A DNA stretch of 64,000 bases from an uncultured Flavobacteriales bacterium. GTDB lineage: Bacteria; Bacteroidota; Bacteroidia; Flavobacteriales_G; Salibacteraceae. Below the pieces are notes generated by a model. The model was not told the DNA's origin. It saw only the letters and a program-made list of their open reading frames with translations, and searched no databases. Positions 13,527-13,977 of this stretch are shown one piece after another. The stretch covers positions 556,861 to 620,860 of the forward strand of contig CALSRJ010000001.1 in the NCBI GenBank assembly GCA_943788725.1, written 5' to 3'. Position 1 is the stretch's first letter. The number at the start of each line of letters is the position of its first letter. The position numbers and the translations under genes were made by a program.

Positions 13527-13745
13527 GCGGTATTTGAGGTTGCGAAGGCGGCAACGCCTTGAGCAAATATCTCGTTTATGTCGATACCGATAGATTTTAA
13601 CAATGAGGGCACGAGCAAAAGCTTCATTGTAAAGTCGTTGACTACGCTATTCACAATGCGCAATGAAAAACTGTAAAAACACTGCCTCGACGGGTATAAA
13701 TTCCAGCGTAGTTTTAGCCATCTAACTCTTTAATACCAACGATAT

Positions 13746-13910
13746 ATGATCGCAGCATGGCAACAAGAGGTCGATACACTAAAGGCCTCATTGACAGGGG
13801 ATCTGTTCCAAGACATGGAAGCCAGAGACCAAATTCACAACCTCGAAATGAAGATCAACGGCGTTAAGCCTAGCAGTTCTGAATTCGAATGCGTGGGATG
13901 CGGTAGCTAA
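13746..13910 (+). CDS. Small 54-aa protein ending in CVGCGS
   Basis: Not in the ORF track. ATG at 13746 to TAA at 13910 encodes a charged, probably helical N-terminal 40 residues (EVDTLKASLTGDLFQDMEAR), then IHNLEMKINGVKP and a C-terminal CVGCGS with a CxxC pair. Codon use looks ordinary and a strong terminator begins 20 nt after the stop, so it should be an independent transcript. It reminds me of small conserved Bacteroidota proteins with the same tail, but I cannot search to confirm. The CxxC could bind metal or be redox-active. The function is unknown. Confidence 0.72.
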   Translation: MIAAWQQEVDTLKASLTGDLFQDMEARDQIHNLEMKINGVKPSSSEFECVGCGS

Positions 13911-13929
13911 ATCTACGCATCTGTTAGAG

Positions 13930-13977
13930 ACCGACTCGCCAAGTGAATAGAAGTTCACTTCGTCAGTCGGTTTTTTT
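13930..13977 (+). terminator. Terminator after the 54-aa ORF
   Basis: A two-tier hairpin: ACCGACT pairs with AGTCGGT, and inside it AAGTGAA pairs with TTCACTT around a six-base loop, followed by seven Ts. The T-run is on the plus strand only, so it serves the small ORF rather than the convergent SLC13 gene. Confidence 0.88.

Follow-up and report, generated by a model that had tools for sequence, protein, structure and literature searches.

Introduction

The sequence CxxCG followed by a small residue is the usual knuckle of zinc ribbons. DksA/TraR proteins, which are small and encoded by phages, plasmids and hosts, consist of helices followed by a CxxCG zinc motif, and in the Rad50 zinc hook a CxxC at the apex of a coiled coil binds one zinc ion in trans with a second CxxC. 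A coiled-coil hairpin is combined with a C-terminal zinc ribbon in the zf-RING_7-type proteins CT398 and MSMEG_4306, and the published description of MSMEG_4306 reports this ribbon to be conserved (PMC5947703). Tiny conserved host proteins can also travel with phages, as illustrated by ribosomal protein bS21, which many uncultured phages carry (PMC6375957; PMC9723584).

Here we describe a 54-codon gene from a 64,000-nt window (the whole stretch of DNA that was analysed) and the unnamed family to which it belongs: proteins of ~54-60 aa in which a short hairpin of helices precedes a flexible tail with CxxCGS at its end, common to Bacteroidota chromosomes and phages. The family is undescribed, and a literature search on the CxxCGS motif returned no mention of it; its general kind, phages carrying small host proteins, is already known. 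Like DksA/TraR, the family is found in hosts and phages and has helices followed by CxxCG; whereas DksA/TraR proteins have a four-cysteine finger and Pfam and NCBIfam models, however, its members lack such a finger and gave no DksA/TraR match in either collection. They also recall the zf-RING_7-type proteins in placing a C-terminal CxxCG after helices, yet those proteins are far longer and have a full four-cysteine ribbon, in contrast to the single half site of the small family, which has no Pfam match. The resemblance to bS21 lies in being a tiny conserved host protein present in many uncultured phages, although no sequence relation between the two was found. By analogy with the Rad50 hook, the CxxC of the family could bind one zinc in trans, but it sits at a free C-terminus rather than at a coiled-coil apex and the dimer is putative. 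Aqs1, a phage quorum-sensing anti-activator (PDB 6v7u), is likewise a small phage-encoded protein; it was the top PDB fold match of a phage member, at a non-significant E of 2.6 and 18% identity over the aligned part.

Results

A conserved gene with its own terminator

The gene occupies positions 13746-13910 of the forward strand, from an ATG at 13746 to a TAA that ends at 13910, as the original prediction of an open reading frame with a CVGCGS tail had it, and encodes the 54-aa product MIAAWQQEVDTLKASLTGDLFQDMEARDQIHNLEMKINGVKPSSSEFECVGCGS. The preceding 38 positions (13708-13745, forward strand) align without a difference to the sister genome G008 and probably contain the promoter and 5' UTR. 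Both flanking genes, for a pentapeptide-repeat protein and a DASS-family anion symporter, lie on the reverse strand, and no phage gene was recognised next to the 54-codon gene. The same gene order is found in G008 (locus L019), and the symporter still follows the gene in a second congener (L054).

A tBLASTn search with the 54 residues, proposed as a check of the original prediction, found relatives in 17 of 60 related genomes; every one ended in CxxCGS, and the frame and both cysteines were conserved. Compared with its congeners and near relatives, the window gene has saturated dS and a dN of 0.12-0.28, and the sister genome differs from it by three synonymous changes and no amino-acid change. 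Because relatives keep the frame, length and CxxCGS tail, because dS is saturated against a low dN, and because the sister genome shows synonymous differences only, the open reading frame is, by comparative evidence, a genuine gene under purifying selection. Its shortness and its absence from an ORF track might have suggested a spurious frame or an artefact, a chance that the conservation, the purifying selection and the terminators reduce to practically nothing; synonymous saturation together with conservation across families refutes it.

Downstream of the stop codon (13926-13975, forward strand), an interrupted stem with two 1-nt internal loops runs into TTTTTTT, as expected of an intrinsic terminator. 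The stretch folds with a minimum free energy of -28.3 kcal/mol (z = -4.2 against 200 shuffles) and is kept in G008. To call this terminator 'textbook', as had been done, was slightly generous: the hairpin is strong and has its T-run, but the stem is broken twice and a simple pattern scanner did not report it, probably because of the internal loops. Terminator-like hairpins lie within 130 nt of 38 of 81 host copies versus 13 of 243 shuffles, and of only 1 of 74 phage copies. Many host copies thus stand as units of a single gene, whereas those of phages are embedded in operons. The Bacteroidota -7 promoter TAnnTTTG occurred upstream of 10 of the 81 host copies against 7.4 expected and therefore gave no signal.

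Predicted helical hairpin and invariant tail

AlphaFold modelled the window protein (pLDDT 80) with two confident helices and a disordered tail, a layout matched by a phage member and in agreement with the amphipathic N-terminal half that had been predicted. Helix 1 (codons 2-14; 13749-13787, forward strand) presents a hydrophobic stripe of W5, V9 and L12, and helix 2 spans codons 20-38 (13803-13859, forward strand). The CVGCGS tail (codons 49-54; 13890-13907, forward strand) forms the extreme C-terminus and resembles half of a zinc ribbon.

We aligned 157 distinct sequences (82 host and 75 phage). L12, G18, D23, I30, C49, C52 and G53 are invariant in both sets and S54 reaches 98-100%; together with S54, residues L16, M24, D28, H31, L33, M35 and P42 exceed about 90% in hosts and phages alike. 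Within helix 2, M24, D28, H31 and M35 make up the most conserved surface stripe and I30 and L33 belong to the core, and conservation of the helices equals that of the tail. The expected CxxC near the C-terminus was recovered in full, with both cysteines in all 157 sequences, an invariance that is partly one of selection since most sequences were gathered by patterns that include the tail. Profile searches of whole genomes made no demand on the tail, and nearly all of their intact matches nevertheless extend to the last residue. Exactly two cysteines are present in 153 of the 157 sequences, the other four having three or an extra single cysteine, so that no classical four-cysteine zinc ribbon is formed within one chain.

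Searches of Pfam, NCBIfam, PHROGs, PADLOC and, by sequence and by fold, the PDB gave no significant match to the family. DUF7129 (PF23455) scored 13.1 bits over residues 41-53 only, against a gathering score of 30 bits; the best PHROGs match among 61 members had an E of 0.002, with weak families that differed between members; and the best E for the PADLOC anti-phage defence models, reached in few members, was 0.003. No zf-RING_7 or CT398-like family is among the Pfam matches listed for 61 members, and the profile match to CT398 (PDB 4ilo) was weak and non-significant (E 7.5). A fold search of BFVD retrieved three uncharacterised proteins, 25-38% identical and two of them from uncultured phages, that are likely relatives.

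Copies in bacterial chromosomes

Profile searches found the gene, in single copy, in 16 of the 35 genomes of the window's own family, and in 58 of 149 genomes (37 of 85 genera) of a Cyclobacteriaceae-type family, where copies are single except in genome G781. Class-wide, 23 of 295 genomes had it, and in a sample of the phylum 11 of 396 matched at E <= 0.01, a few of them as weak coiled-coil matches. A GTDB genome scan gave 219 relatives, among them Algoriphagus, Echinicola, Belliella, Roseivirga and Fluviicola. Elsewhere in the class, other families have divergent cousins with the ending DECEMCGS or DDGCLYCGS. Divergent members gave a profile too variable for scanning a collection. The description as a small conserved Bacteroidota protein thus stands as far as conservation and phylum are concerned, but the distribution in the class is patchy and the gene is at least as prominent in phages.

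The host gene is mostly stand-alone and single-copy. Among Cyclobacteriaceae-type loci, 18-23 have the same genes on their flanks, which implies vertical inheritance there for some time. In around 20 of these loci (within L022-L098), genes for a pseudouridine-synthase-like protein and a MoxR-type ATPase come after the small gene, and a divergent amidohydrolase-like gene comes before it (names assigned by eye). This neighbourhood is lineage synteny, and none of its genes lies beside the copies of the window's family in the loci compared. G781 holds three divergent copies (L261, L262 and L263) that end in CEACGS and each have an internal stop; two of them share flanking DNA, as if on a repeated element. 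Members on contigs labelled as a Polynucleobacter MAG (L062) and Bacteriovorax (L076) are probably mis-binned or contaminant.

A mobile accessory gene in phages

At least 393 uncultured viral contigs carried relatives in an IMG/VR scan, and further scans added more. Phage versions are up to 82% identical to host copies, and in 77 of the 113 distinct viral loci that we read, the stretch read includes one of four portal, capsid or terminase genes. The phage operons that hold the small gene include terminase, portal, endolysin, holin, GroES or primase genes, and its position varies: after a holin, with an M15, Amidase_2 or Amidase_3 endolysin, in a GroES-terminase setting, between a capsid and a portal gene, after TerL, or beside a VapE-type primase. 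Neighbour pairs numbered 41, a count inflated by contig ends and small ORFs; by our own reading, about twelve settings are clearly different from one another.

The nearest cultured relatives of two phage groups are Flavobacterium, Cellulophaga and Nonlabens phages. The gene is absent from the three that we checked, MW202828, NC_055853 (elemovirus) and NC_018271 (P12024S), and no member was found in a cultured phage collection searched with the window protein and with a phage protein. MW202828 provides an empty site, in which the gene upstream of GroES abuts GroES (TAATG); in L136, L189 and others precisely this junction is occupied by the small gene, whose stop overlaps the GroES start (ATGA). 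As in moron-like accessory genes, it is missing in syntenic relatives and present at differing positions. In phages the small gene is therefore a mobile accessory gene, absent from the nearest cultured phages, where its neighbours abut, and variable in setting. In the loci read, hosts and phages had no genomic neighbour in common, so no target is named by context.

The link to phages first came to light in a plasmid search, which matched two unusual 'plasmid' records, one from Lysinibacillus and one from Escherichia. The Lysinibacillus record (CP045836.1; L132/L133) is a tandem-duplicated Bacteroidota-type phage of ~33 kb with seemingly frameshift-broken genes and encodes a 65%-identical homologue twice. 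The E. fergusonii record (NZ_CP040811.1; L134) is of similar size and 99.8% identical to CP045836.1 over the 1.16 kb compared. The phage in both records is probably a shared sequencing contaminant. Among the uncultured phages, L136-L218 include a long GroES-like protein next to terminase, and L182, L188, L190 and L216 have a GroEL of their own (45-48% identical to that of L216). In another group (L135, L160, L236 and L239-L248), a radical-SAM-like protein is encoded adjoining or near the small gene.

Mixing of host and phage copies

Host and phage sequences intermingle on a tree built from 57 columns, with 13-16 label changes, and hosts form a single clade in 0% of bootstrap trees. Starred branches force only two host/phage changes, and the window's genus clusters with the phages of the capsid-portal set (support 96/97). 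A clean host/phage split was not obtained because 54 residues are too few. Several host/phage transfers, in either direction, are likely from these sequences.

Discussion

From the CxxCGS ending, the metal- or redox-linked function of the original prediction is plausible. Since conservation is strong in host and phage copies alike, a single conserved binding partner is indicated, and we propose, with a probability of roughly 40% and mostly by inference, that the protein is an adaptor that combines a half zinc ribbon working in trans with a helix-2 face seated on a host machine. The tail would bind one Zn2+ together with a second CxxC: there is one knuckle per chain and, therefore, zinc would need to be bound in trans. 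This second CxxC might belong to another protomer, giving a zinc-clasped dimer, or to a partner protein. The M24/D28/H31/M35 face of helix 2 would dock on a conserved host machine and tune it; phages, which would need that machine while infecting the cell, may for this reason bring a copy of their own. We count in favour of this adaptor the helix-2 residues and tail columns that are conserved in host and phage copies alike; against it, the AlphaFold model leaves the tail disordered, and against the zinc step, the two cysteines could equally form a redox pair. That a small regulatory or adaptor subunit of a core Bacteroidota machine was captured repeatedly by unrelated phage lineages and exchanged back, its half zinc ribbon being completed in trans, is a more tentative proposal, on balance somewhat doubtful.

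Host and phage copies could also be related through a gene born in phages for host takeover or superinfection and later domesticated in chromosomes, where it would act against other phages or for a resident phage. The patchy host distribution (23 of 295 genomes in the class) beside a broad phage one, the absence of a host clade from all bootstrap trees and the mobile position in phages favour this history. We consider it rather unlikely, given that host copies are single and keep constant neighbours in 18-23 Cyclobacteriaceae-type loci, which looks like long-standing vertical inheritance, that no PADLOC match is better than E 0.003, and that the protein is too short for rooting the tree. C-terminal cysteine tails also occur in ribonucleotide reductase and DsrC/TusE, and the CxxC of the family might similarly carry electrons or sulfur as a swinging-arm dithiol, a function from which phages could benefit when they make nucleotides or fold proteins. 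A CxxC placed exactly at the C-terminus in all members, on a flexible, low-confidence tail, would suit such a redox protein. It is nonetheless an unlikely one: the G-S that follows is typical of zinc knuckles, not of redox tails, and no thioredoxin, ribonucleotide reductase or sulfur-relay gene was recognised among the host and phage neighbour clusters examined. Together with the phage-born gene, the redox protein is nevertheless a serious rival to the adaptor.

Genomic context suggests two further roles. In one large phage group the gene directly adjoins a holin gene or an M15 or amidase endolysin gene, with GroES no more than about 1.2 kb away or GroEL as a neighbour, as might be expected of a helper working with the phage GroES/GroEL or the lysis cassette. 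Other phage groups have a capsid-portal or primase setting with no chaperonin or lysis gene seen nearby, cultured relatives with the same GroES module are without the small gene, and no groESL was recognised near host copies, all of which makes a helper quite improbable. We rejected a chaperonin partner, since GroES/GroEL neighbours are confined to one phage group, and a role in the lysis cassette, which recurs in that group and is missing in others. A radical-SAM-like gene 10-12 nt from the small gene in one phage group (L236 and L239-L248) would fit the precursor of a ribosomally made, modified peptide (RiPP) with the CVGCGS end as its core. Yet no modification-enzyme neighbour was recognised in the flanks of the listed host loci or in most other phages, and the supposed core is the most conserved part, with helices conserved as well as the tail, unlike a typical leader and core. 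Context and conservation led us to reject this very improbable precursor, its enzyme neighbour being limited to one phage group.

Genes this short routinely escape notice, and the small family is an example with culturable Cyclobacteriaceae hosts (Algoriphagus, Echinicola and Belliella) and hundreds of phage contigs. If the adaptor reading is true, the partner would expose a host process that phages must control. A partner found in a culturable Algoriphagus or Echinicola strain could reveal a host process manipulated by many Bacteroidota phages.
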